Shown here: positions 339 through 16,923 of the stretch, piece by piece | Layout: every line of letters begins with the position of its first letter | Numbering within the stretch: position 1 is the stretch's first letter | From: an uncultured Muribaculaceae bacterium | Lineage (GTDB): Bacteria > Bacteroidota > Bacteroidia > Bacteroidales > Muribaculaceae | DNA length: 59,110 nucleotides | NCBI GenBank assembly: GCA_947627615.1 | Contig: CANQWS010000020.1 | Span: forward strand, 1 to 59,110 | Direction of reading: 5' to 3' | Notes under the pieces: model-generated | Databases searched by the model: none | The model's input: only the letters and a program-made list of their open reading frames with translations | Told to the model about the DNA's origin: nothing | Translations under genes and position numbers: made by a program

Positions 339-1094
339 ATGGACGACCTGAAATTTTTCCGCAACAGGCGAACTATTCGCCGATATACTGACCGTGAGGT
401 GACCGATAATGAACTCCGTGACATGCTTGAGGCTGCGTCGCAGGCCCCCACTACGGGCAACATGCAGCTCTACAGTGTGATTGTAACACGCAGCGACGAG
501 GGAAAGCGGGATCTGGCTCCGGAACACTTCAATCAGCCGCAGACCACAAGCTGTAATGTGCTGCTGACATTCTGCGCCGATTTCAACCGATTTGTCCGTT
601 GGTGTGAGGTGAGTGATGCCGAACCCGGTTATGACAATTTCCAGTCATTCGTCACCGCCGTGATCGACACCGTGATTTTCGCCCAACAGTTCTGCACCAT
701 CGCGGAGATGCGCGGTCTCGGTGTATGTTATCTTGGAACCACAACCTACACAGCTCCGCAGATTGCCGCGAAACTGGCATTGCCCGCAAGAGTGGTGCCG
801 GTGATAACCCTTTCGGTAGGTTATCCAGACGGAGAGGCGCCGCTCAGTGACAGGATTCCCGTGAGCGCGATAATGCACTCCGAGACTTACCATGACTATT
901 CCGACGAGGAAATCCGTCAGATATATTCCGAGAAAGAGGCGCGTGAGGACAGCCGGCAGTTTGTGGCCGAGAACGGCAAGAAATCACTGGCGCAGGTTTT
1001 CACCGATGTGCGGTACACCAAAGAGAACAATGAGGTTTTCTCACGCCTTTACCTTGACTTTATTGTCAATCAGAAGTTCGGCCTTCCGGAATAG
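339..1094 (+). CDS. Nitroreductase family protein (NfsA/flavin reductase-like)
   Basis: 251 residues. The N-terminus has the typical nitroreductase opening, RRTIRRYTDREV, followed by ASQAPTTGNMQ, the FMN-phosphate-binding segment of the family. A central GLGVCYLGTT segment and the hydrophobic VVPVITLSVGYPD strand also fit. The family are FMN-dependent, NAD(P)H-using oxidoreductases acting on nitro compounds, quinones or flavins; the natural substrate is not readable here. The C-terminal KQGF-type tail (VNQKFGLPE) is normal for the NfsA-like branch. The last 54 bases overlap tail to tail with the acyltransferase gene on the other strand, and both reading frames look genuine. Confidence 0.85.
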   Translation: MDDLKFFRNRRTIRRYTDREVTDNELRDMLEAASQAPTTGNMQLYSVIVTRSDEGKRDLAPEHFNQPQTTSCNVLLTFCADFNRFVRWCEVSDAEPGYDNFQSFVTAVIDTVIFAQQFCTIAEMRGLGVCYLGTTTYTAPQIAAKLALPARVVPVITLSVGYPDGEAPLSDRIPVSAIMHSETYHDYSDEEIRQIYSEKEAREDSRQFVAENGKKSLAQVFTDVRYTKENNEVFSRLYLDFIVNQKFGLPE

Positions 1095-2072
1095 CCATTG
1101 CCGGAAACTGTCAGCAAAAGCTGAAAACGAATAGACCGCTGCCGTGAAAATCAGGCAGAAAGCGGTGTAGACCAATAGCGAGCCTTGTTGCCATATTCCT
1201 ATGGCAAGAGGGCGGATTGCGCCGCCCCAGACTATGGGATTCTTGTGGATGAGGTTGGCGGCGAAGGCACCGCGGGCCAACGCATTGATTTTAGCCGACG
1301 TCAGCTTCAGAGTGGTGAAGAAAACGAAAGCTGAAACAGACGACAGAATGACCCAGGGCGAGTTATAGGCGTAGACCCTGGCCGGTTCCATCCACACAGC
1401 CAGCAGAGCCGTAAGTCCCACTGACAAGACATAGCCGGAAGCTGACCATCTGCGGATTCTGTCTTCTGGCTGCGAGGTGCGGTCAAGAGTCACCCGGAGC
1501 CATCGACCCACAAGATACATCATGACGAGCTGGACCGGAGTGTAGCCCGACGGATTGAAGTTTCCGCCCCATAGCCATCCCGCCCAGATGTTGGCTGCCA
1601 CGAACAATCCGAGCCACAGGGTGAAATTGCGGTAGGAGAGGGTGTCGGTGGCGGAGTTCAGCATCGGACTCAGAAGATAGAGAAGCATGTAGGCCGGCAC
1701 ATACCAGAGGTCGGTATGCGTGAAAACCATCCATGATTCAATCCAGCCGGTCAGAGAGCATCTGTCGGGGCAGACCAGAAACTTGCAGCTGTAGATGATG
1801 ACCGCATAGAACATGCACATCAGCGTGAATTTCAGGAACCCGCTGATTCTTGCCCTTATACCGAAATAGCCGGATATGAGGGTGAAGCAGTTCACGCCGA
1901 TTATGGTGATTGATTCCACAATTATCCGCCAGACGTCGGCCGCGGTAATGTCGCCGAATGCGCCAGGGGTGGGGAGTCCGACCGAGGCGCCGTCGAGATG
2001 CACCAGTATAACCGCCATCATCGAGAGGATGCGGAGCAGTTCAATGTTGGACTGACGTGGAGCTGTTGCCAT
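1041..2072 (-). CDS. Acyltransferase 3 family membrane protein
   Basis: 343 residues with about ten hydrophobic segments. It opens with RQSNIELLRILSMMAVILVH, typical of acyltransferase-3 (OafA/WecH/OatA-type) proteins, in which the N-terminal R-x10-H pattern marks the active site; the His is in VILVH. These enzymes move acyl groups, often acetyl, across the membrane onto cell-surface sugars. Its ATG overlaps the kinase stop codon (TGATG), so it is translationally coupled and is the last gene of the kinase/SEDS-PBP locus. By analogy with OatA it might O-acetylate peptidoglycan, but it lacks an extra SGNH domain and the substrate is inferred only from context. Its 3' end overlaps the nitroreductase gene. 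Confidence 0.85.
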   Translation of the reverse strand: MATAPRQSNIELLRILSMMAVILVHLDGASVGLPTPGAFGDITAADVWRIIVESITIIGVNCFTLISGYFGIRARISGFLKFTLMCMFYAVIIYSCKFLVCPDRCSLTGWIESWMVFTHTDLWYVPAYMLLYLLSPMLNSATDTLSYRNFTLWLGLFVAANIWAGWLWGGNFNPSGYTPVQLVMMYLVGRWLRVTLDRTSQPEDRIRRWSASGYVLSVGLTALLAVWMEPARVYAYNSPWVILSSVSAFVFFTTLKLTSAKINALARGAFAANLIHKNPIVWGGAIRPLAIGIWQQGSLLVYTAFCLIFTAAVYSFSAFADSFRQWLFRKAELLIDNKVKVKA

Positions 2073-3553
2073 CAGAATGATTTTACGGCCAGAAACAGAT
2101 TTGACATGCCGGATGCGGGAATCTCGCGTCCGAAGCTCAGGCTGAAGGCTTTCTGCCTGTCATCGCCGCTGTCGGTTATCCAGATCGGCGATGTCAGGCC
2201 GAGTTCCCGGGCCGACGGTGCGATTTCTCTGAGTTCGGCGGCCGAGGGCATCCGCGTGCCACGCGGAACAATAAAGCAGTTGGACTCATACCAGAGTCTG
2301 GACTGCGGACCCATGCGGTCGTAGTCTTCCTCGTCGATTCTGCGCAGCCAGGGCATTGGCTGACTCACTTTGACGAGTATCAGTCCGTGGGAACCTGAGG
2401 AATCGATGTGGCATACACGTCCGCCGTTCATCACGTCTCCTATTCTGATTGTGCCGCTGCTGCGTCCGGAGGCTTTCAGGGATTTGATTTCGTCACGTAG
2501 CTTCGCGTTCTCAAGTTTCAGCTGCTCGATGATTTCGGCGGAAGCGCCGTCGGCCGGACGCATGAGTGTTTTCACACGGCGAAGCGCCTCAAGAACCTGC
2601 TTGGCATCGGGATACCGGTCGGCAGGATTTTTCTCAAGGCATTTCATGATCACTTCCTCCAGCTCGTCAGGATAGTCCTTCCCGTATTTTTTGCCGGGAA
2701 AGACGCTCTCGAAAGCCGCCCGACGCAGCGGTTCTATCGGCGCCGGTTTCTCATGGAGCTGACGGTCATATATCCGGCTTATGTCGGCCATGCCGCCTCC
2801 GGTCTCCATTACAAACGGTACGCGTCCGGCAAGCACCTCATAAAGCAGTATGCCGAGACTGTAGACATCGGATGCCGCAGTGATTTCCTTTCCGTCAAGC
2901 TTCTCGGGCGAAGAATATTCGTAGGCGCCGTCGCCGCGCGACGAGCTCTTGACGCAATGTTCCTTCTGGATGGCGAGGCCGAAATCCAGCAGTATGAAGT
3001 TGCCGTCATAGTTGCGCCTCATTATGTTGTTGGAATGGAGGTCATTGTGGTTCACGCAGTAGCGGGCCTTCAGCTCCCGTTCCTTTTCAGGAGTGATTAT
3101 GAATTTGCTACCGTCTTCGGGGTCCATTTCCAGATTGTCGGTATCCGGGTCCATCAGGAATTTGTAAAGGTCGGCATGGCAGTAACCCACGGCCCCGGCA
3201 ATGCCCTCGGCAAACCGCCAGAACTCATCGATGTTTATGAACTTCTGCTCCCGCAGATACTCGTTGAGGGTCTGTCCGTCAATGTAGTCCATCTCCACTA
3301 TGGCATGGCTGTTGATCAGGCGCGGCTGATAGATGTGGACTATATTGGGATGGCAGCCGTTGCCTATCTGCAGCAAAAGCTTGCATTCGTTAAGGAAACT
3401 CTGATAGGCCTTGTCCGATTCGTTGTCGACCATTTCATTTGAAATCTTTATGGCGCGGACATATCCGAGCTTGCGGTGACGGACCTTATAGACAGCGGCA
3501 AAACTTCCGCGGCCTATGAGCATGAGTTTCTTGTATTCTGTTGTAAAAGGCAT
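2072..3553 (-). CDS. Hanks-type Ser/Thr protein kinase with C-terminal coiled coil and extra domain
   Basis: 493 residues. The kinase domain spans about 7-330: glycine-rich loop GRGSFAAVYK (14-23), ATP-binding Lys36, catalytic loop HNDLHSNN with Asp171 and Asn176, and DFG at 190-192. The usual HRD is HND and the usual DLKPEN is DLHSNN, so the kinase is of the non-RD type. An acidic insert of about 40 residues (127-165) separates helix E from the catalytic loop. A short coiled coil (about 345-365) leads into a C-terminal domain (about 372-493) that vaguely resembles the DUF1566/FISUMP fold, with IRIGDVMNGGRV and a closing FSLSFGREIP. No membrane segment or PASTA repeat is seen, so it should be cytosolic, unlike actinobacterial PknB. 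It lies between an FHA gene and the coupled acyltransferase. Confidence 0.9.
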   Translation of the reverse strand: MPFTTEYKKLMLIGRGSFAAVYKVRHRKLGYVRAIKISNEMVDNESDKAYQSFLNECKLLLQIGNGCHPNIVHIYQPRLINSHAIVEMDYIDGQTLNEYLREQKFINIDEFWRFAEGIAGAVGYCHADLYKFLMDPDTDNLEMDPEDGSKFIITPEKERELKARYCVNHNDLHSNNIMRRNYDGNFILLDFGLAIQKEHCVKSSSRGDGAYEYSSPEKLDGKEITAASDVYSLGILLYEVLAGRVPFVMETGGGMADISRIYDRQLHEKPAPIEPLRRAAFESVFPGKKYGKDYPDELEEVIMKCLEKNPADRYPDAKQVLEALRRVKTLMRPADGASAEIIEQLKLENAKLRDEIKSLKASGRSSGTIRIGDVMNGGRVCHIDSSGSHGLILVKVSQPMPWLRRIDEEDYDRMGPQSRLWYESNCFIVPRGTRMPSAAELREIAPSARELGLTSPIWITDSGDDRQKAFSLSFGREIPASGMSNLFLAVKSF

Positions 3554-3570
3554 ATCTCTTGTTCCGGCGT

Positions 3571-4491
3571 TCAGTCTGTAATTTCATTATAGATGAGAAT
3601 CACGTTCTTGCCCAGCTCTATCATGTAGCCGTCGGCCAGCGGGTGTCTGAGCATTGTGTCCATGACCTCATGCTCTTCGCCGTCGTAGATCAGTTTGCTG
3701 CAGGAGCCTCCCATGGGGCGGCATCCCCATTTCAGGGCCTTGAAGTAAAAGCGGCCGTTGCCGGCGATTATGTCCGCGTGGGCGGAGCTTACGTGATTGT
3801 TGCACTCCTGTATGGCCGGGTCCCTGTCATTGTCGCGGACCACGATGTCGTTGGGCCGGTAGGCTCCCGGCTTGTTGGCCATCTGTCCGCGGCCTATGTG
3901 ATAGACCTTCTTGCGGTCCGAGTCCAGTTCGTAGATTTCGCTGGCGAGAGAACCGGTGCCTGTGACCACGCTTATGGTGGCCCTGACACGATCGGCCCTC
4001 TTCGGCGCTGACAGGAAAGAGTAGTAGAGCACGTCGTTGACAATCCTGCGCGCGTTATCGGGCAGCTCGTCTTTTGTCACCATTCTTATGTCAAGGACTT
4101 TGGAGCCTATGTTATCAAGCATGGCATTGTCAAGGCGGAGCCGCAGCTGCTCCTTCATGGTTTCATCGGCCCATGCGTAGTCCTTGACGTTGTAATCCGG
4201 CCTGTCCACTATGACATATATGAACAGGGAACGCAATGACTGTGAGTCAGTGCCCGTGGCCTCCTTGAATTCCTCCAGAATGTAGCCAATGGCCTGGTCG
4301 CGGTTGTCAATAGCGTTGTTGAATATCTGGCCCGGCTCTTTGGCGTTTCTCTTGGGTTTTTCTTCGGATGCAGGGACATTCCGGCCGGAAGAAGGAGTCT
4401 CCGGAGTCTCATCGGCGTCCGGTGATACGGTTCCGTTGATTTTATCGGTCAGATTGCCTATCGCTTTGCCTATTTTTTTTAAGAATGCCAT
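3571..4491 (-). CDS. FHA domain protein, second copy in the locus
   Basis: 306 residues. After an amphipathic, charged N-terminus comes a domain at about 65-185 (LFIYVIVDRPDYNVKDYAW onward) that is similar in layout to the N-terminal domain of the other FHA protein here. An FHA-like domain at about 200-306 shows a GRG after the first strand and the NNHVSSAHADI phosphothreonine-binding loop. FHA domains bind phosphothreonine peptides, so this is a likely reader or substrate of the adjacent kinase, whose gene begins 17 nt downstream. It lies between the SEDS-PBP and kinase genes. Confidence 0.8.
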   Translation of the reverse strand: MAFLKKIGKAIGNLTDKINGTVSPDADETPETPSSGRNVPASEEKPKRNAKEPGQIFNNAIDNRDQAIGYILEEFKEATGTDSQSLRSLFIYVIVDRPDYNVKDYAWADETMKEQLRLRLDNAMLDNIGSKVLDIRMVTKDELPDNARRIVNDVLYYSFLSAPKRADRVRATISVVTGTGSLASEIYELDSDRKKVYHIGRGQMANKPGAYRPNDIVVRDNDRDPAIQECNNHVSSAHADIIAGNGRFYFKALKWGCRPMGGSCSKLIYDGEEHEVMDTMLRHPLADGYMIELGKNVILIYNEITD

Positions 4492-4524
4492 AACTGTCTA
4501 TAGGTTGTGATGGTTAAAAGCGCT

Positions 4525-7500
4525 TCAATACAAGTCATATCCGGCGCCGTTGAGTGTGGGGATTATGGTTGACGACATGGTGCGCAGGGCGCCGCCGGAA
4601 GTGATTGTCTCCGCACGTTCAATGCGCAGCGCAACGGCTATCGGAGCGTTCAGTTTGTTGCTCCACATAAAGCAGGTGTACCATGCGTCATTGTTGTTTC
4701 TTCGTCTGCGGTCCTGCCGTTCGGGAGTACCGGTCTTTCCTCCGATGCTTTTCGAGTCACCGGGCTGCAGGTTCAGGTTGCCGTGACGGGCGCTCTCGGC
4801 CTGCATGAAACTCTTCAGTATTCCGGCTTCCTGCGGGCCTATCACCTCGATCTGTCTGGGGTAGGGCATCTTTTCATTACCGATGCGGTTCACGTAGCGG
4901 GTAGGCGCGAGTTTACCCTCGTTGGCTACAATCGAGGCCACACGGGCCATCATCAGCGGGGTTGCCCGCAGAGCGCCCTGACCCCAGGCAAGCGCCATAG
5001 AGGCGTTGCGCCAGTGGCGGTTGGTGGATTTGGGCCGGAAATCCGGTGCGGTTATCCTTGCATACCATCCGAGGCCGTTGGTGGAGATTTCCGACAGGAC
5101 GCTCCGGAACGGCACGGAATTGTTGAGCTCGTCAACATTGAAGAAGTAGGATGTGACATTGCGGGTTTCCTTGCCGTCGTAATGCAGACGGGCGCCTACG
5201 GCTTCATAGATGTCGCCGAGCTGACTGTAAAGGTTCTTGTCGTTGAGCAGATTGATGAAGTAATTGTTGGAAGAGTAGACAATGGCCTTGCGCATGTCAA
5301 CCGGGCTCAACGGTTCCTTGGCGCCCTCGATGCCCTCCTGGGCGGAGAAGGTGTAGACGATGTCGGCCGCCTCCGGTCCGAATTTTTTCAGGGCGGCCAT
5401 CGAGGTCATCACTTTCGCTGTGGAGCCGGGAGGCGTCTGGAATGTCATACCGAGGTCACGTTCGGTGATTGGTCTGTGGCCGGGCATTGTCTCGAACATG
5501 GCGTCGCCGAATTTGCCACGCTCGTTGAGCATCACTATTGAATCCTGTTCGGGCAGGGGATAGTTGGCCGAGGCCAGAAGGTCGCCGGTTGCGGCATTGA
5601 GCACCACTGCCGAGGCCCGCAGATTGCGGTTGTTACGGAATTCCGAGGTCGGGAAATGGTTTGCCATGGCGTCCTGAAGCATTTTCTGCAGCGTGGCGTC
5701 GACGGTAAGGTACATGTCGCGTTCGTTTCTCCGCGAATTGAATTCGGCGATGAGGGGATTGTTGTAAAGTCCGAATTCAAGGAACGGCACTATGTTGGTA
5801 TAGTCCCTCCTGAGCAGTTTCTGAGTCTTTTCCGATTTCGGGACGAAACGGTTTTCCCGGAATTTGTTCGTGCGCAGTTCAACGCGTTCGGTGGGAATGT
5901 CCAGACCGCGCAGTTTTCCGGCATATCTTTCCTCGGCCATGAATCCTATGGGGTCATCGTCCATGTATCCGAGTACTTTGCGGGTTCCGGCATCGCCGAG
6001 CATGAAAAGCATGTGATCGCCCATGGTATAGTATCGGGCTTTGCGCCGGTGCGCTTCCTTTTTCAGCTTGCCGGCATCGAATCCCAGCCGGCTCATGGAC
6101 GGGATTGCGCTTGTCAGTGAGTCAGGCGAGCTTGTAGCAAGCAGCAGACCGTTGACGTCGTAGATGTTTCCGGCATGGAGGCGGTTGAGCACCATGCGTA
6201 TGCGGGGATTATAGACTATGTCGCGTGCGCCTCTCGTATTGGTTATGTAGGCGGGCCTTATCACGGTTTCGTCCTTGTTGATGAGCTGATAGTTGGCCAG
6301 CACGCCCAATATGACCATGCCGCCTATCATGAACAGAAGCACGCTCGCCGACACTGCGCCCGCGAACGTGGACGCATATTTTTTCTGGCTCTCCGTAGCT
6401 CTGATGCGGGATGCGGCAAGAACTATACCGAAGGCCCCCATGGTGGTTATGAGGCTTGTGCGGCTATAGCTCAGGAACGGGACAGTCACTCCGGTAAGCG
6501 GAACAATGCCCAGCGAGCCGAGAACAATGAACAGAAACTGGACTCCGGTCAGGAGCGCGATTCCCATCACAAGATACATGGTGAACGGCTGTCCGGCCCT
6601 TCTGCCGATGAGCAGGGACCTGTGGACGAGCAGCACGAAACAGAGAATTATGAGCAGGAGACCGATGAAACCCGTCATTTCACCTATGGAGGTGAAAACC
6701 ATGTCGGTGTGGAAAGCCGGGACCACGGAGGGGCTGCCGTTGCCGAGTCCCATGCCTGTGGCTCCGCCTGAAGCCGCGCTCCAGATGCCTTGCGCCACCT
6801 GATCGCCGCCGGGGACATGGTTGTCCCACTGTCCGCCCCATGACATCTCCGTGCGGTTTGTGAGGCGGGCTGCCTCTGATTCGGCTCCCATGAGGCCGAG
6901 AATTGGACCTCCAAGGGCGAAGACCACGATGAGAAGGTTCACTATCAGCGCGCTTTCATAAATCTGCCGTGAGCGGAACCATCCGTAGGCCAGCCATGCG
7001 GCAAACCACAGCACGGCGGCTGTTATGAGCATGAACGGAGTGTTGTTGATGGCGCGGGCAATAAGCATCAGGGCTATGAACGAGAGCAGTCCCAGCAATA
7101 GCTGGGCGAAGTCACGCCGGGCCATGGAATACAGGAATATGAACGTTATAAGCACCACGAGAGCCGGACCCATGTCGCTGAGAACCAACAGGTACATCAT
7201 CATCAGTCCCAACATGACAATGACGGCCACGCTGATGGTGCCCAACTGCCTTCGGGCCGATAACGGCGTCAGTTTCGCCGAGAAAGCCTGCAAAAGAAGG
7301 GCATTCTCGGCAAAGAAGGCTGATACGAATATGAGAATCAGATATTTGCACAGTTCACTCGGCTGAAAGCCTCCGAGGTTAACCCTCGCATCGCTTCCTT
7401 CGGGTCCTGTTCCGAACATTCCGAGAAGCATAATCAGCCCCACTGCCGCAAGAAGATAGGAAAATCCGGACGAGAAGCTGAAGGCCGAGCTGCGTTCGAG

Positions 7501-8715
7501 CGAGCGGGATCTGTTTTTGCTGTGGAAAATACCTGACAGCGGGTCAAATGGAATGATGCCTGCCTGAAGCCGGCTCTTGCCGAGGAAAAATTTGCCCGGA
7601 TTGACGCATGAGACAAGCGCCATAACAACGAGTCCCACTCCGAGAGCGTTGGCCATGGCCGTGCCGTAGGACTTGTCGCCGAGCGGGCTCGACATGGCGA
7701 ACATGGAGACTATGCCTATGCCGGTGAGCATCATTATTATGCCTGCGGTCATGTAGTCCGACCGTGTGCCGAGTCTGCGGTCACGGACAATCATGAATAT
7801 GAAGAACGCAAGCCATCCAATGAGGTAGATTGCGGCGGCTCTGGTCATGTCGTTACGGAAATCGGCCGGGGCGCTTACAGTTATGGCCCGGTCATTCTTC
7901 AGCGCCTGATAGGTGTAGGAGTCAAGCGGAGTGAGAACGTGTTCCTGCTGGCGGAATGTCAGCGTTATACCGTCGGCGGGCATCTGTCCGGTGGCTGTTG
8001 TGCCTTTTTCCCGTCCGTACTGATAACCCTCTTTTATGGGAAGCACACTGTAGCTCTTGCCGGGCTCAACGTGGAAGCGGACTTGTCCGGAGGTATCCGT
8101 TGTCGCAAATCCGAGCGTCTCGGAAACGAGTTTGGTGTCCTTGTCATGATTTTTGGAGCTGTTTTTTTCTCCTACGGAATCCATGCGGTGCTCACGCAGA
8201 CGAACTGTGATTCCTGACAGCGGCGCATCCGGAATCTGCTTCCCGTTGCTGATTTTCACGGTGATTGTGGCGCTTCCGTTGCCGAAATCTGAACCCGGGG
8301 AGCTGTTGGCGGCCTTGTGCCATTCCGAATCCATGCCGAGCAGGTCATAGTCATTCCTTACGCGGTTACGGAATTCTTCTCCGCCTTCCGACATGGCTTT
8401 TGCCGCCGGAATCTTGAAAACCGGTCTGTTGAGCTGGCCCAGATTCTCTATGGAACCGTTGGCCTTTATCCGGGTTACGATCCATCCGGCGGCCAGAGAG
8501 GCGTCCTGGGCGTCGGTCATGTAGCCGGCGCCGAGAAGAAGTTGCTTAAGGCTGTCGGGATTCGTTTTAGGGCCGAGGACAAGTGAGTGTCCCCCGGCCA
8601 TCAGCTTCTGCTGGTCCCGGAACATGGGACTGAAATTGTCGGTAGTGGCAATCATGCCGAGAACGAACATCGCGGCACACAGCAGATATGTTATATAAGG
8701 ATTGGTCTGTTTCAT
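4525..8715 (-). CDS. Fused SEDS glycosyltransferase (RodA/FtsW) and class B penicillin-binding protein
   Basis: 1396 residues in one uninterrupted frame. Residues 1-30 are a membrane anchor. About 45-270 is an extracytoplasmic region with a carboxypeptidase-regulatory-like beta domain (TDTSGQVRFHVEPGKSYSV). About 290-790 is a SEDS polytopic domain. It contains PAFHTDMVFTSIGEMTGF, whose Asp671 corresponds to the catalytic Asp of RodA, and VTVPFLSYSRTSLITTMGAFG, a classic SEDS signature. After another membrane segment (about 800-825) comes a PBP transpeptidase: Ser1098-T-A-Lys1101 nucleophile motif, Ser1148-S-Asn1150, and Lys1327-T-Gly1329. All catalytic motifs are intact. SEDS proteins polymerise lipid II and class B PBPs crosslink the strands; they normally act as separate partner proteins. 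Stand-alone RodA or FtsW is about 380-430 residues. Flanked by PP2C and FHA genes in one operon. Confidence 0.93.
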   Translation of the reverse strand: MKQTNPYITYLLCAAMFVLGMIATTDNFSPMFRDQQKLMAGGHSLVLGPKTNPDSLKQLLLGAGYMTDAQDASLAAGWIVTRIKANGSIENLGQLNRPVFKIPAAKAMSEGGEEFRNRVRNDYDLLGMDSEWHKAANSSPGSDFGNGSATITVKISNGKQIPDAPLSGITVRLREHRMDSVGEKNSSKNHDKDTKLVSETLGFATTDTSGQVRFHVEPGKSYSVLPIKEGYQYGREKGTTATGQMPADGITLTFRQQEHVLTPLDSYTYQALKNDRAITVSAPADFRNDMTRAAAIYLIGWLAFFIFMIVRDRRLGTRSDYMTAGIIMMLTGIGIVSMFAMSSPLGDKSYGTAMANALGVGLVVMALVSCVNPGKFFLGKSRLQAGIIPFDPLSGIFHSKNRSRSLERSSAFSFSSGFSYLLAAVGLIMLLGMFGTGPEGSDARVNLGGFQPSELCKYLILIFVSAFFAENALLLQAFSAKLTPLSARRQLGTISVAVIVMLGLMMMYLLVLSDMGPALVVLITFIFLYSMARRDFAQLLLGLLSFIALMLIARAINNTPFMLITAAVLWFAAWLAYGWFRSRQIYESALIVNLLIVVFALGGPILGLMGAESEAARLTNRTEMSWGGQWDNHVPGGDQVAQGIWSAASGGATGMGLGNGSPSVVPAFHTDMVFTSIGEMTGFIGLLLIILCFVLLVHRSLLIGRRAGQPFTMYLVMGIALLTGVQFLFIVLGSLGIVPLTGVTVPFLSYSRTSLITTMGAFGIVLAASRIRATESQKKYASTFAGAVSASVLLFMIGGMVILGVLANYQLINKDETVIRPAYITNTRGARDIVYNPRIRMVLNRLHAGNIYDVNGLLLATSSPDSLTSAIPSMSRLGFDAGKLKKEAHRRKARYYTMGDHMLFMLGDAGTRKVLGYMDDDPIGFMAEERYAGKLRGLDIPTERVELRTNKFRENRFVPKSEKTQKLLRRDYTNIVPFLEFGLYNNPLIAEFNSRRNERDMYLTVDATLQKMLQDAMANHFPTSEFRNNRNLRASAVVLNAATGDLLASANYPLPEQDSIVMLNERGKFGDAMFETMPGHRPITERDLGMTFQTPPGSTAKVMTSMAALKKFGPEAADIVYTFSAQEGIEGAKEPLSPVDMRKAIVYSSNNYFINLLNDKNLYSQLGDIYEAVGARLHYDGKETRNVTSYFFNVDELNNSVPFRSVLSEISTNGLGWYARITAPDFRPKSTNRHWRNASMALAWGQGALRATPLMMARVASIVANEGKLAPTRYVNRIGNEKMPYPRQIEVIGPQEAGILKSFMQAESARHGNLNLQPGDSKSIGGKTGTPERQDRRRRNNNDAWYTCFMWSNKLNAPIAVALRIERAETITSGGALRTMSSTIIPTLNGAGYDLY

Positions 8716-8724
8716 CAGCGGTAA

Positions 8725-9972
8725 TCAGATGCTACTGGGTTGTTCAGGTCTTTCGGTACGGTTTTGTTCGTTGCCCTGCGGCCCGGGATTTTCAATCTGT
8801 TCTCGGACCTGGCGGTTGATGGTGTCGGCCGTCTGCTCTCCCAGCCTGTGCGGGTCGGCGAACGTACTGTCCGGCTCGTTTTCTATATCTACGACAACAT
8901 CCTGATTCTCCTGCAAAGCCTCTTTGGATTCCTCGGCCATCTGCAAGGTGGTTTGCCGTCCGATGAAATAGCCAACGGTTCCTCCGACAATGAAAGACAG
9001 GGCTATGGCTATTATCATGTAATTGAATCGCCTGAAGTTGAATGATTTTCCTTTGGCTGTGGCCAGGGGCTTGTCATAGACGTGCTTCATGTTGCTGTTC
9101 CCGTCGTCGGCAATGAGGTCGTCGTCATTGTCGATTGTCCGGAACTCCGATTCGGAATCAAGGCTGATGCTGTTGCCCGGAGCCGATGTGGATATTTGCT
9201 GGGGTATATCAATGTTTGCTATCACTACGGTGATGTTGTCCTTGCCCCCGGCTTCCTTGGCCAGATCTATGAGTGTCGAAGCCTCGTTCTCAACGGTCAT
9301 CTTGCGGGATAGGACCTCGGCGATTTCGGCGGAATAGAGCATGTCGCTGAGACCGTCGGAGCAGAACAGGAACTGCGTGGACGAGAATATGGGGAATATG
9401 CCCGCATCGAGAAAATTTCTGTCGTCAGGCTCATGAAATTCCTCGCCGAGCGACCGTTCGATGATGTTGCGCTGCGGATGGGTCATGGCTTCTTCTTCAG
9501 TGAGCAGCCCCATTTCCTCGCGATAACCGACAAGCGAATGGTCATGGCTAAGTTTTTTCAGTCCTTCCTGAGGGGTGAACTGATACAGGCGCGAATCGCC
9601 CACGTGGACCATGTAGAGACGGCGCTCCTTCAGGGAGATTATTGCCGATGACAGCACGCATCCCATGTGGGAGCGGCTCGCATCGGCTTTCTTATGCTCC
9701 ACTATGCTGTTGTTGGCGGCTGTGACAGCTCTTTTCAGGAGCTCAAGGCAGTCCTCGCCCTGATGCGAACTGACAATGCCGGTTATTTCATCGCGGGCTA
9801 TTTCTGCGGCCACCTCGCCGCCTTCGTATCCGCCAATTCCGTCAATGGCGGCAAGCAGCAGATACGAGCCGTCCCATATCCGGCAGGCTATATAATTGTC
9901 CTCGTTGTTCTTGCGGACGTTACCTATGTCGGTAGCTCCGAAGAAACTCGCTGATACTTCTTTCTGGCTCAT
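8725..9972 (-). CDS. PP2C-family Ser/Thr phosphatase with C-terminal membrane anchor
   Basis: 415 residues. The catalytic domain (about 8-255) has every PP2C signature: GNVRKNNEDN, AAIDGIGGYEGG, MVHVGDSRLY, LFCSDGLSDML and GGKDNITVV, giving the metal-binding aspartates. A linker of about 65 residues leads to one membrane helix (about 322-345) and an acidic, Pro/Gln-rich tail of about 70 residues. This matches PstP of actinobacteria, which reverses PknA/PknB phosphorylation. The gene starts inside the stop of a 27-codon frame (ATGA overlap) and ends 9 nt before the SEDS-PBP gene. Confidence 0.92.
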   Translation of the reverse strand: MSQKEVSASFFGATDIGNVRKNNEDNYIACRIWDGSYLLLAAIDGIGGYEGGEVAAEIARDEITGIVSSHQGEDCLELLKRAVTAANNSIVEHKKADASRSHMGCVLSSAIISLKERRLYMVHVGDSRLYQFTPQEGLKKLSHDHSLVGYREEMGLLTEEEAMTHPQRNIIERSLGEEFHEPDDRNFLDAGIFPIFSSTQFLFCSDGLSDMLYSAEIAEVLSRKMTVENEASTLIDLAKEAGGKDNITVVIANIDIPQQISTSAPGNSISLDSESEFRTIDNDDDLIADDGNSNMKHVYDKPLATAKGKSFNFRRFNYMIIAIALSFIVGGTVGYFIGRQTTLQMAEESKEALQENQDVVVDIENEPDSTFADPHRLGEQTADTINRQVREQIENPGPQGNEQNRTERPEQPSSI

Positions 9973-10052
9973 CGCGGCAGGTGTTTAAAGTGATTGACAC
10001 AGAGATAGATTACGAGCAGTACAAGACTTGCTATGAAAATATAGTTCCACAT
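9969..10052 (-). CDS. 27-aa single-span membrane microprotein
   Basis: A short frame, MWNYIFIASLVLLVIYLCVN followed by HFKHLPR, fills the gap between the FHA and PP2C genes. It is one hydrophobic helix with a short basic tail, predicted N-out/C-in by the positive-inside rule. Its TGA overlaps the phosphatase ATG by 4 nt (ATGA), the hallmark of translational coupling. There is no clear Shine-Dalgarno site, which is normal in this phylum. It could be a true subunit or just a coupling leader peptide. I know of no named family. Confidence 0.55.
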   Translation of the reverse strand: MWNYIFIASLVLLVIYLCVNHFKHLPR

Positions 10053-10071
10053 GAGATGGTGAGTTTTTTCA

Positions 10072-11160
10072 TTAATCGGTTGCCGTGAATTTTATCTGGA
10101 CCTCGTCATCAAGGATTATTGTGGATTTCCGTGGAAGCATGACCCACGATGACGGATTGCATTCCATGGTACGCATGTTGAGTGTCGTGGGGCCTATGAC
10201 GCATATCTGGAATGTTCCTGCCGACGGATTGCGCCGGATTTTGACGTGCGGTGAAAGAATGCGGTCGCTGTTGACACGTATGACCTCCACGCCGTCGCTT
10301 CCGCGCATGGCGCTGCGGCCGGAGATGTGGACCTCGTCGGCGGTGACGGCCATTGTGTGTATCACCGAGTTGTCGTTTCCGTCAAGAAACTCTCCGTCCT
10401 GGGCCTCCAGAATGGCATGGTATGGGGCGGGCTGCATTGACGCTGTCCTCACGCCCGGCCCTCCGGCTGTCTCCGGCTTGTTTTTGAATCCGTTTCCTGT
10501 CTGAGAAGGGCGCGGACCGGCCGGCTTGCTGTCGTCAAGCGTCAGCTTAAGTTTCACACGGTCTTTTTCAATCAGATAGAGCTTGTTGAGAATCTCGGGA
10601 TTTATGCAGTTCCTTATGGCCCGCAGGGAGTTGACACCCTGAACTGTGGTGACGACCCTTCCGGTGCCTCTGGATGATTCCTTATTTCCTTCCGAGGGCG
10701 GGAAAAGCGTTGACTGAATCTGTATCACGATTCCGTTTTGCATATCGTCCTCGCTGACGCCGTCAATCTCGGCATCCTCCGGAATTTCCACGAGCTGGAA
10801 CTGCCAGTACTGCGAGTGAGGACTGTAGCCGGGGTATCTGTTTTTTGTGCGTTTTTTAATCTCGTCCACGAGCATCTTCTCGGCGCCTTGGGCCATGAAC
10901 GGGAAACTGTCCGATATCTCGCTGTAGTTGGCTGCTTTCAGGTAAATGGTGAAAGAGGTGTGATATAGGAAGTTATGGTCAGTGGTGAGCTTTTCTATGG
11001 TGGAAATGAAGTGCCTGAACAGAGTGTTGAGAATTTCATTGACGGTCACTTCCTCCGGGTTGATTCCCTGAGGCCGGCCTGCTTCAGCAGCTAATCCCGA
11101 AGTGTTGTTGTCTTCCGGCTCAGGCGAGAGGAAATCCCTTATTCTTCCGAAAAATGACAT
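10072..11160 (-). CDS. FhaA-like FHA domain protein, first gene of the locus
   Basis: 362 residues. The N-terminal domain (about 28-135) begins EVTVNEILNTLFRHFISTIE and includes HTSFTIYLKAANYSEI and the FQLVEIPEDAEI strand. This arrangement recalls the DUF3662 domain at the start of mycobacterial FhaA, though I can judge this only by eye. A linker rich in Pro, Gly and Asn follows, then a C-terminal FHA-like domain (about 275-362) with ISGRSAMRG and NSDRILSPHVKI as the phosphopeptide loops. It is the promoter-proximal gene, with a -7 box 36 nt upstream. The likely role is to bind phosphorylated kinase or cell-wall synthesis partners. Confidence 0.75.
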   Translation of the reverse strand: MSFFGRIRDFLSPEPEDNNTSGLAAEAGRPQGINPEEVTVNEILNTLFRHFISTIEKLTTDHNFLYHTSFTIYLKAANYSEISDSFPFMAQGAEKMLVDEIKKRTKNRYPGYSPHSQYWQFQLVEIPEDAEIDGVSEDDMQNGIVIQIQSTLFPPSEGNKESSRGTGRVVTTVQGVNSLRAIRNCINPEILNKLYLIEKDRVKLKLTLDDSKPAGPRPSQTGNGFKNKPETAGGPGVRTASMQPAPYHAILEAQDGEFLDGNDNSVIHTMAVTADEVHISGRSAMRGSDGVEVIRVNSDRILSPHVKIRRNPSAGTFQICVIGPTTLNMRTMECNPSSWVMLPRKSTIILDDEVQIKFTATD

Positions 11161-11195
11161 AGAGTATGTGTTGGCTTATTGATGTATGTTATCCG

Positions 11196-11203
11196 CAAAA
11201 ATA
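11196..11203 (-). promoter_or_regulatory. -7 promoter box of the kinase/SEDS-PBP operon
   Basis: TATTTTTG on the minus strand fits TAnnTTTG and lies 36 nt before the FHA start. No convincing -33 element is seen. It is back to back with a plus-strand box at 11217-11224, so the two promoters overlap. Confidence 0.55.
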
Positions 11204-11216
11204 CAAAAAAAATTCG

Positions 11217-11224
11217 TAATTTTG
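11217..11224 (+). promoter_or_regulatory. -7 promoter box of the EEP-family gene
   Basis: TAATTTTG fits the Bacteroidetes -7 consensus and lies 30 nt before the ATG at 11255. Confidence 0.6.
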
Positions 11225-11254
11225 GACCATCATATAAAATTGCAATGATTTCCC

Positions 11255-12559
11255 ATGAAAAAAATCTTCCTTTTCACGCTGGCTGTGGCAGTAAGCGTAA
11301 TTGCCATGGCGTCAGCACCTCAGAAACCGGCAACCATAGTTGCTGCAAGTTACAATCTCCGTCAGGCAAACCACTCCGATTCCGTGGCCGGCAACGGCTG
11401 GGGGCGTCGTCTGCCAGTGCTTGCTGACCTTATCCGTTTCCACGGATTTGAAATCTTCGGAACGCAGGAAGGATTCAAGCCTCAGCTTGAGGGACTCAAA
11501 GCCCTGTTGCCCGGATATGAATACACCGGAAAAGGGCGTGATGACGGAAAAGATGCCGGCGAACATTCGGCTATATTCTACCGCACCGATCTGTTCGAAC
11601 TGCTTGACAGCGGCGATTTCTGGATGTCGGAGACTCCGGAAGTTCCCGGTAAGGGATGGGATGCGGTACTGCCGCGAATCTGCTCCTGGGGAAAATTCCT
11701 GCACTATCCTTCAGGCCGTGTGTTTGTGTTCATGAGCCTTCACATGGACCATGTGGGCAAACAGGCCCGCATTGAGAGCGCGAAACTCGTGAAGGAAAAA
11801 ATCAAGGAGATAGCGGGAGACGAACCGGCAATTGTGACTGGCGATTTCAATGTCGACCAGACACACCAGTCCTACCGCACCATGACCGGCAACGGAGACA
11901 TGCTCGATTCATACGAGGTGGCCGCGATACGTTTTGCGCCCAACGGCACATTCAACTCCTACCAGACTGACAATTACACCGAATCGCGTATTGACCATGT
12001 CTTTATCACCCCCAATATAAAGGTTGAGAAATACGGCGTGCTTACAGACACTTACCGCACTGACGACGGAGAGGCGAGCGATGTTTCTCTCAATGCGGCT
12101 CCGAGCGAGATTTCAGCGAAGAAATACACTGCAAGAACACCGTCGGACCATTTCCCCGTGATGGTTGTTCTGGAACTGCCGAAGCCGGAAGGTTTCACCT
12201 CTCTGAAATCAGTATTCGATGAAATAAAGGAAATTCCCGGAATGGATTATCTTGACAGCAAGGAACTGAAAAAGAGCGGATTGGTTGACAAACAGGTTGC
12301 AGAGGCCGTATTCCATGCCAATGCCGAACCGAGGGGACAGCTGCTTGAAATCGTTTCACGCATTCCCGATTCGCTTGTTGAACGCGAGGAAGAGGATGAT
12401 ACACACCGCATCTGCCGCCGTTATTTCAATCCCCTGACTCCTGATTCAAGCGTAGGCGAAGCCCTGTTTTTCGTTGTGGGACATGGCGGAAATGACACAG
12501 TTGTGCTTTATTCACCCAAAATAAAGGCTTCAGACCTTGAACGATTCTTTATTAATTAG
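11255..12559 (+). CDS. Secreted endonuclease/exonuclease/phosphatase family protein with C-terminal DUF4252-like part
   Basis: 434 residues with a clear signal peptide (MKKIFLFTLAVAVSVIAMAS). Residues about 28-310 are an EEP fold: ASYNLRQ, GTQEGFKP (metal-binding Glu), VTGDFNVDQ, SRIDHVFITPN and the closing TPSDHFPVMVVLEL. The family cleaves phosphodiester or phosphomonoester bonds in nucleic acids, lipids or inositols; the close secreted relatives in Bacteroidetes have unknown substrates. Residues about 315-434 form a separate alpha/beta domain with KEIPGMDYLDSKELK and a hydrophobic VVLYSPKIKASDLERFF end, which reminds me of DUF4252 proteins. That assignment is tentative. Confidence 0.8.
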   Translation: MKKIFLFTLAVAVSVIAMASAPQKPATIVAASYNLRQANHSDSVAGNGWGRRLPVLADLIRFHGFEIFGTQEGFKPQLEGLKALLPGYEYTGKGRDDGKDAGEHSAIFYRTDLFELLDSGDFWMSETPEVPGKGWDAVLPRICSWGKFLHYPSGRVFVFMSLHMDHVGKQARIESAKLVKEKIKEIAGDEPAIVTGDFNVDQTHQSYRTMTGNGDMLDSYEVAAIRFAPNGTFNSYQTDNYTESRIDHVFITPNIKVEKYGVLTDTYRTDDGEASDVSLNAAPSEISAKKYTARTPSDHFPVMVVLELPKPEGFTSLKSVFDEIKEIPGMDYLDSKELKKSGLVDKQVAEAVFHANAEPRGQLLEIVSRIPDSLVEREEEDDTHRICRRYFNPLTPDSSVGEALFFVVGHGGNDTVVLYSPKIKASDLERFFIN

Positions 12560-15432: not shown

Positions 15433-15885
15433 ATGAAAAAGTTTCTTTTAATTCTGTTATTATTGGTGGCCTGTGCGGGCACTTCTTCGGCTTTCCCTTT
15501 TGACAAATATACCCTTGACCGCAAGGACCTGCCGGAAGCCGCGCGCGAAATGCTCGACAAATATTTCCCCAAGGCCAAAATCGGTATGATAAAGGTTGAC
15601 CGTCATTTTCTGAAAAAGACGGATTATGACGTGCGAATGGTCAACGGCACCACTATCGAATTCAAGAATTTAGGCAAATGGTCGTCGGTTGACTGCAAGA
15701 ACCGCGAGGTGCCCGAAGAGCTTATCCCGGGCGCAATCAAGAGGTATGTCAAGAAAAATTTCAGCGAACTGAAGATTAATATGATCAAGAAAAAATCGTC
15801 GGGCTACGAAATCAGACTGTCCGATGACGTTGAACTGAAATTTGACCTTCTCGGCACGTTCAAAGGCGCGGTGATTGACAACTAA
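15433..15885 (+). CDS. Secreted PepSY-like protein
   Basis: About 150 residues when started at MKKFLLILLLLVACAG, which gives a proper signal peptide; an earlier in-frame ATG at 15358 would put 25 unlikely residues in front. Two repeats follow (about 30-85 and 95-150), each with a helix carrying FPKAKIGMIK or FSELKINMIK and then strands such as DYDVRMVNGTTIEFK and GYEIRLSDDVELKFD. This is the double PepSY-like (DUF2874) layout common in Bacteroidetes. Function is unknown. The stop codon is part of the following terminator stem. Confidence 0.8.
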   Translation: MKKFLLILLLLVACAGTSSAFPFDKYTLDRKDLPEAAREMLDKYFPKAKIGMIKVDRHFLKKTDYDVRMVNGTTIEFKNLGKWSSVDCKNREVPEELIPGAIKRYVKKNFSELKINMIKKKSSGYEIRLSDDVELKFDLLGTFKGAVIDN

Positions 15886-15917
15886 GAGCCGGTTCGACAA
15901 CAAAAACCGGCTCTTAG
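15882..15917. terminator. 13-bp hairpin sharing sequence with the IS5-like terminal repeat
   Basis: CTAAGAGCCGGTT (15882-15894) pairs perfectly with AACCGGCTCTTAG (15905-15917). The left arm and loop read GAGCCGGTTCGACAA, identical to the first 15 bases of the inverted repeats at 21701 and 22418. The stem starts inside the stop codon of the PepSY-like gene. It serves both converging genes and is followed by TTTA. Confidence 0.75.
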
Positions 15918-15939
15918 TTTACGGATATGTCTTTTATTC

Positions 15940-16923
15940 TCATTCTATTGTGATAAGAACATATTTCTGAGTGCCGAGGCCGAGGCTTTCGGCATAGTCA
16001 AGCGCATGGATTCCGTTGCGGTCGGCCATTCTCTTTTCGAGATGTACTTTACCGTGGTCGGTGGAATTGCGCACGGCATCAACGCAAGCACGGTCAAGGG
16101 CAACCGGGTCGAGGGAAGCGAATATGCCTATGTCCGACATCTGTACCGGAGCCGGTTTTGCGACACAGTCACAATCCACGGAGAGATTGTTGGCCACGTT
16201 GATGTAGAGGATATTTTCGCCGGCATGGTCTACGACCGCTTCGGCAGCTTCGGTCATGGTCTCCAGAAAGACATCCTGCGTGGCGGCATGGTCCCAGAGG
16301 GTCTTCACATCGGTTGTCACTCCGCCGGAATGTACCCATGCTTTGCCGGCGCTTGACTGGACGCCTATGCCCATGTTCTTGATGGCGCCGCCGAATCCGG
16401 CCATGGGATGACCCTTGAAGTGTGACAGGATTATGGCGAAATCGTAGTCAAGCCAGTCCTTGCCGATGAGAGCGTAGTTGATGTGGCGTCCTTTCTTCAC
16501 CGGAATCGCAGTCTCTCCGTTCTCGTCAAGCAGGTCGAAGGGTGCTATTTGAGTGAACCCGTGTTCGCGGGCCAGTTCAAGATGGTCCTTGTTGTCCAGT
16601 CTGGCACCGGCGTAGGCGGTGTTGCACTCCACTATGGTAGCGTCAAGACCGTTTACCAGCGGACGGATCAGGGCGGGGGAGAGGTGGTTGGGATTGCCCT
16701 TTTCGCCGGTGGAAATCTTCACGCAGACTTTACCTTTGGCCTTGCGGTCAAGTGCGTTGTAGATCTTGATGAGATTCTCGGGCGTGATTTCCTTTATGAA
16801 ATAGACTGTGGCCACGGAGTCCGAAGTAGTGGGGGCCACCTGCTGGGCTTTTACTCCTACGGCATTGAAGCTCAGTGTCAGTAATGCGATGGCAGTCAGT
16901 CTGAGAAACGTTTTCGCTTTCAT
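15940..16923 (-). CDS. Secreted DUF362 family protein
   Basis: 327 residues with signal peptide (MKAKTFLRLTAIALLTLSFN, cleavage near KAQQ). The DUF362 core shows VCVKISTGEKGNPNHLSP, LILSHFKGHPMAGFGGAIKNMGIG-type residues around 165-190, and a DPVALDRACVDAV segment near 275. DUF362 proteins are often fused to ferredoxin domains or linked to Fe-S chemistry; this one has no ferredoxin domain, and a CDC motif is near 255. The biochemical role is unknown. It lies 27 nt downstream of the MFS gene on the same strand, so the two probably form an operon. Confidence 0.8.
   Translation of the reverse strand: MKAKTFLRLTAIALLTLSFNAVGVKAQQVAPTTSDSVATVYFIKEITPENLIKIYNALDRKAKGKVCVKISTGEKGNPNHLSPALIRPLVNGLDATIVECNTAYAGARLDNKDHLELAREHGFTQIAPFDLLDENGETAIPVKKGRHINYALIGKDWLDYDFAIILSHFKGHPMAGFGGAIKNMGIGVQSSAGKAWVHSGGVTTDVKTLWDHAATQDVFLETMTEAAEAVVDHAGENILYINVANNLSVDCDCVAKPAPVQMSDIGIFASLDPVALDRACVDAVRNSTDHGKVHLEKRMADRNGIHALDYAESLGLGTQKYVLITIE

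Follow-up and report, generated by a model that had tools for sequence, protein, structure and literature searches.

A kinase-associated SEDS-penicillin-binding protein fusion operon in Muribaculaceae and its probable kinship with the actinobacterial pkn locus

A stretch of 59,110 nucleotides from an uncultured Muribaculaceae bacterium (assembly GCA_947627615.1, contig CANQWS010000020.1; hereafter the window) carries an operon in which a SEDS glycosyltransferase fused to a class B penicillin-binding protein (PBP) is encoded together with a Ser/Thr kinase, a PP2C phosphatase, two FHA proteins (FHA1 and FHA2) and a membrane microprotein. This module is probably an accessory peptidoglycan synthase under Ser/Thr phospho-control, an activity and a control that we infer, and it probably shares its ancestry with the actinobacterial pkn locus. 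Shared ancestry is better supported than convergence because the fused SEDS domains branched with the RodA proteins of pkn loci, apart from ordinary FtsW and RodA, and both convergence and recent transfer ranked below it. Taken together, the results point to an old, patchily kept module and not to coincidence.

SEDS phylogeny, gene order and the FhaA-like protein

The fusion was assigned to SEDS by a match to Pfam FTSW_RODA_SPOVE (2.4e-33) and by its HTD Asp, and to the class B PBPs by a helix, a Transpeptidase match (1.3e-21) with the SxxK, SxN and KTG motifs, and the lack of a class A glycosyltransferase domain. Both Pfam matches lay within one frame of 1396 amino acids, confirming the fusion called in a first-pass annotation of the window. 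In an alignment of 25 of the 29 fusions, the HTD Asp (Asp671 in the window), the residue that is catalytic in RodA, was invariant (25/25), as were the three transpeptidase motifs (25/25). The window's own genome also encodes FtsW, RodA and three further transpeptidase proteins, and since FtsW and RodA are present besides it, the fusion is a supernumerary synthase.

In a first SEDS tree (63 rows, excluding the short or partial L029 and L104), the 29 fused domains fell on one side of a branch (100/99), and so did the 29 together with four actinobacterial pkn-locus RodA proteins (100/99). The other side held 25 SEDS proteins of the ordinary Bacteroidota type together with SpoVE, the FtsW and RodA of E. 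coli, and two fusions from Rhodococcus plasmids. For a second tree (51 rows), 20 long or redundant rows were dropped (six of the fusions, the two from Rhodococcus, and twelve ordinary SEDS of Bacteroidota), and Firmicutes and own-genome SEDS were added; 23 fusions again grouped with the four RodA and one Embleya protein (100/99). A tree forcing the fusions together with ordinary Bacteroidota SEDS was rejected on this second set (approximately unbiased (AU) test, p 0.00019). The fusions were sister to the actinobacterial RodA rows, not inside them, and no Bacteroidota copy was nested within actinobacterial RodA in these trees with four or five actinobacterial rows. Simple profile scores were in line with the trees, ranging from 1.2e-31 to 2.7e-40 for four full actinobacterial pkn RodA and from 7.8e-16 to 1.1e-25 for the SEDS of the ordinary Bacteroidota set; the E. 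coli proteins scored 1.5e-26 (FtsW) and 7.5e-24 (RodA), and Bacillus SpoVE 5e-30, near the weakest pkn RodA. The Rhodococcus plasmid fusions (L098, 8077-10902; L099, 7477-10317) also join SEDS and PBP in one chain. Unlike the module's, they are 941-946 amino acids long as annotated and fell outside the module clan in the first SEDS tree, and the neighbours listed for them include neither a kinase nor a PP2C.

The operon itself comprises seven open reading frames (ORFs) at 1041-11160, all on the minus strand with intergenic gaps of at most 33 nucleotides (Table 1). From FHA1 onwards, in the order of transcription, the junctions are 19 nucleotides, an ATGA overlap, 9, 33 and 17 nucleotides and a 1-nucleotide overlap, so that the seven-gene operon with two overlapping junctions described in the first-pass annotation was recovered. 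Further Pfam matches among the window proteins were PP2C (1.4e-11), Pkinase (4.6e-39) and Acyl_transf_3 (1.6e-18).

Table 1. Features of the operon in the window (aa, amino acids).
Feature	Position	Strand	Characteristics
FHA1, FhaA-like (362 aa)	10072..11160	-	FhaA_N-like domain ~36-212 and degenerate FHA ~244-362, assigned from relatives
Membrane microprotein (27 aa), MWNYIFIASLVLLVIYLCVNHFKHLPR	9969..10052	-	one helix; occupies the place of actinobacterial FhaB
PP2C phosphatase (415 aa)	8725..9972	-	one hydrophobic helix (316-334) and C-terminal tail; Pfam PP2C
SEDS-class B PBP fusion (1396 aa)	4525..8715	-	14 hydrophobic segments (hydropathy); Pfam
Fusion, N-terminal part	7759..8715	-	helix, predicted periplasmic beta domain, second helix
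Fusion, SEDS glycosyltransferase domain	6316..7758	-	HTD motif Asp671, codon 6703-6705
Fusion, class B PBP part	4525..6315	-	helix, then transpeptidase; S1098xxK1101, S1148xN1150, K1327TG
FHA2 (306 aa)	3571..4491	-	C-terminal FHA domain; Arg201 and Ser235
Ser/Thr kinase (493 aa)	2072..3553	-	HND...H catalytic loop; no hydrophobic helix; no PASTA
Acyltransferase-3 (343 aa)	1041..2072	-	Pfam Acyl_transf_3; 1-nucleotide overlap with kinase gene

According to PMC6554272, pstP, rodA, pbpA and a kinase gene are linked in Actinobacteria, and some Firmicutes have pknB clustered with fhaA; the string "Bacteroid" is absent from its main text. The words "fused", "fusion", "Bacteroidetes" and "kinase" are likewise absent from the main text of PMC8406291, and among the matches listed from open-licence full texts no report of a Bacteroidota module was found. 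Three actinobacterial loci were compared (NZ_CP116225.1, NZ_LR134456.1 and NZ_LN868939.1). The order in Actinomyces oris was DUF3662-FHA, FHA, PP2C, FtsW/RodA, PBP2, kinase and pknB. It was the same in Tsukamurella, where PP2C is unannotated, and, by open frames and profile matches to an unannotated record, in Nocardia. The window reads FhaA-like, one-helix ORF, PP2C, SEDS-PBP, FHA2 and kinase. As in the fhaA-fhaB-pstP-rodA-pbpA-pknA-pknB locus (PMC6554272, main text), an FhaA-type gene (FhaA_N-FHA in Actinobacteria, FhaA-like in the window) comes first, followed by a one-helix gene and a PP2C with a helix, and then by SEDS, class B PBP and kinase, the SEDS domains of the two grouping together. 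Unlike the actinobacterial locus, the module has its SEDS and PBP fused, with a periplasmic domain added. Its 27-residue helix holds the place of FhaB (helix plus FHA) and a second FHA gene lies downstream; its kinase comes from another branch and lacks PASTA; and it is an accessory, patchily distributed system in a genome that has FtsW and RodA as well. The Firmicutes PrkC/Stk1-Stp1 pair (L102, L106-L108) resembles the module in having PP2C beside a cell-wall kinase, but no FHA, SEDS or PBP occurred in the stretches read and the kinases are annotated with PASTA.

The two FHA calls made in the first-pass annotation did not hold for the window proteins taken alone, which matched 0 Pfam or NCBIfam families at E 0.05, but they held at family level. 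Scanned singly (E 0.01), 7 of 27 FHA1 relatives matched FHA (best 2.4e-12) and 5 of 27 matched FhaA_N (best 4.9e-6), while Pfam FHA was found in 13 of 23 FHA2 relatives (E 0.01). Two rows from distant classes gave FhaA_N scores of 26.5 bits (L090, above the cut-off of 25) and 19.9 bits (L093, below it). In profile-profile comparisons, the FHA C-termini matched actinobacterial FHA at 87% (FHA1, 22 rows) and 93% (FHA2), and the FHA1 N-terminus (27 rows) matched the FhaA of five actinobacteria at 71% (E 3.7e-5); all six decoy profiles stayed at or below 3.1%. The FHA1 N-termini of 22 Bacteroidia rows matched those of five distant-class rows at 86%. No relation to FhaA_N was seen for the FHA2 N-terminus (at most 3.1%), nor did a search of the window's own genome for FhaA_N give any match. 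A structure prediction for FHA1 from a two-row alignment reached a mean pLDDT (predicted local distance difference test) of 37.2. By these comparisons FHA1 appears to be remotely related to FhaA.

Several results weigh against a common origin with the actinobacterial locus. The group submitted to the AU test was chosen once the first tree was known, the SEDS references included no confirmed actinobacterial FtsW, and the first tree drew a long-branch warning. In the PBP tree (L084, L085, L091 and L095 excluded) the 25 module PBPs formed one clan with no resolved sister group, as did the 25 module copies in a PP2C tree that included PstP. The module kinases were not one clan, and they joined no PknA, PknB or PASTA kinase in a well supported branch. 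Against actinobacterial FhaA_N, the 22 Bacteroidia FHA1 N-termini alone reached 14% and the five distant-class rows alone 40%, the 71% requiring both sets. The binding Arg of FHA1 (R282) was present in 8 of 27 rows, with an R one column earlier in 7 more. Finally, three of the more distant loci (L090-L092) had FHA1, the fusion and a weak FHA2 match, with no PP2C or kinase match in the 18-19 kb read.

Since the kinase, PP2C and PBP trees give no actinobacterial sister, the case for a common origin rests on the SEDS domain, the FhaA relation and gene order. The trees suggested in the first-pass annotation thus gave a divided answer: SEDS grouped with pkn-locus RodA, but the kinase did not group with PknA or PknB and PP2C had no resolved sister. 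The likeness to the actinobacterial locus that it had noticed was nevertheless upheld by the SEDS grouping, FhaA_N in FHA1 relatives, the PP2C helix and the gene order. Convergence, in which Bacteroidota built a kinase-phosphatase-FHA-synthase operon independently, the parts being useful together, was judged unlikely. It would agree with the lack of a specific actinobacterial sister in three trees, with the absence of PASTA from all 30 module kinases scanned (as the first-pass annotation had found for the window's) and with the differing number and place of the kinases between lineages, but the SEDS grouping and AU rejection, FhaA_N in FHA1 relatives, and a shared gene order with a one-helix protein at the FhaB position argue against it.

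Occurrence and linkage in Bacteroidota

The occurrence of the module within Bacteroidota is patchy. A fusion search of 41 genomes detected copies, either full or truncated by a contig end, in 4 of the 25 own-genus genomes (the window's genome included), whereas the 16 genomes from other families of the same order gave nothing beyond partial SEDS or PBP matches. In wider surveys, whose genome samples overlap, an FHA1 profile matched 13 of 297 family genomes. Of two fusion profiles, the one built from 12 sequences matched 2 of 393 genomes at the level of the order and 15 of 395 at that of the phylum, and the 25-row one matched 10 of 395 genomes of the class. The phylum matches were full length in the window's genome and nine others of its class, and partial in five of other classes. 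The closest named record found was a metagenome-assembled genome labelled 'Bacteroides sp.' (JAMPBC010000006.1, 67% identical).

Linkage was read in 23 loci with enough flank, located via the fusion or FHA1 (the window, L031, L032, L054-L062, L080-L089 and L096; G1393, found with the 25-row profile, was left out). They extend from the window's genus out to further orders of its class and include a Spirosoma plasmid. FHA1, PP2C, the fusion (1322-1542 amino acids) and at least one kinase lay on one strand in all 23, and FHA2 was present in 22, L055 ending inside the kinase. Gene order among relatives, which the first-pass annotation had proposed to compare, was conserved, with the kinase position varying. 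Its caveat that unlinked homologues would weaken the operon analogy was answered in part: the genes were linked in 23/23 loci, but most related genomes lacked them, and L090-L092 had no linked PP2C or kinase. Two kinases were found in L060, L062, L081-L089 and L096, both preceding the fusion in L086, L087 and L096, so that kinase number and position vary among lineages.

Some loci had additional ORFs within the module. In L058 two ORFs lay between PP2C and FHA1 (8871-11736, housekeeping-like by eye) and one between fusion and kinase (2648-3328, a GYF_2 protein, 1.4e-15), and in L056 four ORFs lay between kinase and FHA2. In two of the order's families, a radical SAM protein adjoined the module (L056, 13003-14124, Pfam 7.3e-9; L080, 18642-19499, 1.1e-6), and L056 also had a Cys-rich ORF at 15750-16001. 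The contig of L033 ends within the fusion, downstream of FHA1 and PP2C.

Six more distant loci (L090-L095) were less complete or differently built. L093 had an ORF with FhaA_N and FHA matches, PP2C, the fusion and, directly after it (9435-10805), a protein joining a Swt1-like HEPN domain (HEPN_Swt1, 1.5e-25) to FHA (2.5e-8). Because it contains an FHA domain and follows the fusion, this last gene may replace FHA2. The ORF after the fusion in L094 (11479-12753) resembles it by eye. L095 had a fusion without a match to the N-terminal part, plus a kinase fragment. L094, from another class of the phylum, carried FHA1 and a single PP2C-SEDS-PBP chain of 1384 amino acids (7262-11416), with a kinase at the locus edge, and L089 a natural kinase-FHA fusion; the joint action of the parts is supported by these two chains.

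A complete copy was found on the Spirosoma oryzicola plasmid NZ_CP089545.1, with both of its flanking proteins bearing the annotation FHA domain protein, and the flanks of L054 differed from those of the other own-genus copies. These two observations, together with the patchy occurrence, would suit the view that Bacteroidota recently acquired the actinobacterial locus by horizontal transfer. Such a transfer is nonetheless improbable, as the fusions make up a single deep clan, internally structured and set on a long stem. Moreover, the SEDS-PBP fusion is common to the entire Bacteroidota set, so any entry from outside must have been old. In an empty-site test on five loci of the own genus that carry the endonuclease gene of the flank (L150-L154), the nitroreductase was not found in the flank available, and the insertion site was unreadable there.

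Kinase, phosphatase, microprotein and acyltransferase

Kinase residues Glu56, His169, Asp171, Asn176 and the DFG motif were kept in 30/30 aligned sequences, and Lys36 in 29/30; the alignment held 30 of the 37 module kinases, excluding those of L055, L094 and L095 and two each of L084 and L085. In 14 of them, the window's and all others of its own order, HND...H replaced HRD/HGD...K, while the remainder had HGD or HRD with Lys, or in one case HND with Asn. The first-pass description of the kinase as cytosolic fits the window's protein and its two closest relatives, but by hydropathy one or more hydrophobic helices occur in 27 of the 37 module kinases, including the same-genus L054 kinase with its five hydrophobic segments. 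The C-terminal part of the window's kinase had no Pfam match. Against NCBIfam NF033483, the PASTA PknB-type model, the kinase scored 138 bits, below the cut-off of 450. Among the best 60 of 2012 matches of the 30-kinase profile to solved structures, StkP, 4eqm (which we take to be Stk1), PknB and PknA ranked top (3.6e-65 to 2.6e-51), followed by PknE (2.2e-48). The module kinase may have been replaced or be fast-changing.

Of the module's 25 PP2C copies, 24 have a hydrophobic helix after the catalytic domain, as do three of the four actinobacterial proteins tested. The PP2C residues checked were kept in 25/25, except Glu24 (22/25). The phosphatase scored 199 bits against NCBIfam NF033484 (Stp1/IreP), below the cut-off of 230.

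A microprotein ORF between FHA1 and PP2C occurs in excess of chance. The membrane microprotein named in the first-pass annotation gained support from conservation, since a complete ORF that starts with ATG, spans 22-32 codons and contains one hydrophobic stretch was found there in 22 of 23 loci tested, a set that differs slightly from the linkage set by including L033 and excluding L058. The missing case was L080, in which FHA1 and PP2C overlap. Eight of the 22 ORFs share the window's overlap of a few bases with the PP2C start. A strict test retained 16 of 22 loci, where shuffled sequences predicted 0.18 and the antisense strand gave 0; its 30-nucleotide limit cut six ORFs, which run 36-63 nucleotides into the PP2C frame started furthest upstream. 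With looser start codons, similar ORFs followed FHA1 in L090 and L094, while none was found in the stretches searched of L058, L080 and L093 (L091 and L092 lay outside the search). The Spirosoma plasmid gene table, itself incomplete, has no microprotein entry. Actinobacterial FhaB, at the same position, has by eye an N-terminal hydrophobic stretch in four N-termini and in Nocardia. The microprotein could thus be a remnant of FhaB, although it is too short for a sequence test.

The acyltransferase-3 named in the first-pass annotation was found in few copies of the module. Its gene overlaps that of the kinase in the window; it was found only in three own-genus copies (the window, L031 and L032), and a profile of these three matched no other locus scanned, including L054 of the same genus.

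Scans of 900-11300 gave no evidence from promoters or terminators (5 and 7 found, 6.9 and 10.6 expected), and a tRNA was the sole match in an Rfam scan at gathering scores. The G+C content of the operon (51-56% in 2-kb steps) was not distinct from that of the window (46-56%).

Function and proposed mechanism

The kinase also matched models of defence kinases (mad6, 2.4e-45, and PD-T4-6, among the best 25 of 33 families), and defence systems are commonly sporadic and plasmid-borne; together with the HEPN-FHA gene after the L093 fusion, this raises a role outside growth, either in an anti-phage or conflict system or in making a polymer other than peptidoglycan. We consider such a role very unlikely. 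The best stretches of the defence matches fall in the kinase domain, and the MAD6 score was 122 bits, against a cut-off of 460. Among the five other proteins scanned only PP2C matched defence models (4e-8), and no MADS partner was among the matches listed for the six proteins. The SEDS and transpeptidase active sites, moreover, are intact in 25/25 fusions.

Under a peptidoglycan synthase with shared actinobacterial ancestry, the SEDS domain of the fusion would polymerise lipid II and the transpeptidase domain would crosslink it, one chain doing the work of the RodA-PbpA pair. The added periplasmic beta domain may sense or bind the wall. CarboxypepD_reg matched 7 of the 25 fusion relatives and not the window's own protein; in the two relatives checked, L086 and L096, it lay at residues 157-240, below the cut-off. 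The kinase and the membrane-bound PP2C would set the phosphorylation state, and FHA2 would read phosphothreonine. At the positions that we presume to bind phosphothreonine, FHA2 keeps Arg201 in 22/23 rows and Ser235 in 23/23; no hydrophobic helix was found in it. Because FHA2 retains this Arg and Ser whereas FHA1 has often lost the Arg, FHA2 is the better candidate reader. With the FhaA-like FHA1 and the microprotein, whose parts here are conjectural, FHA2 might dock or switch the synthase. The module would be of one ancestry with the actinobacterial locus, and its scattered presence in Bacteroidota would reflect retention in some lineages, loss in others, or transfer.

More tentatively, the module may represent a phylum-wide, partly mobile class of single-chain SEDS-PBP synthases that has a phospho-relay of its own and is of one origin with the actinobacterial locus, in which the microprotein is a reduced or split-off FhaB anchor and a conserved working part. 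The module would bring a non-PASTA input and a candidate microprotein to such systems, and the fused synthase may be easier to assay than a two-protein complex. If the proposed ancestry is true, wall synthesis under kinase control would be older and wider than Actinobacteria, by way of a colinear and partly homologous module in Bacteroidota.

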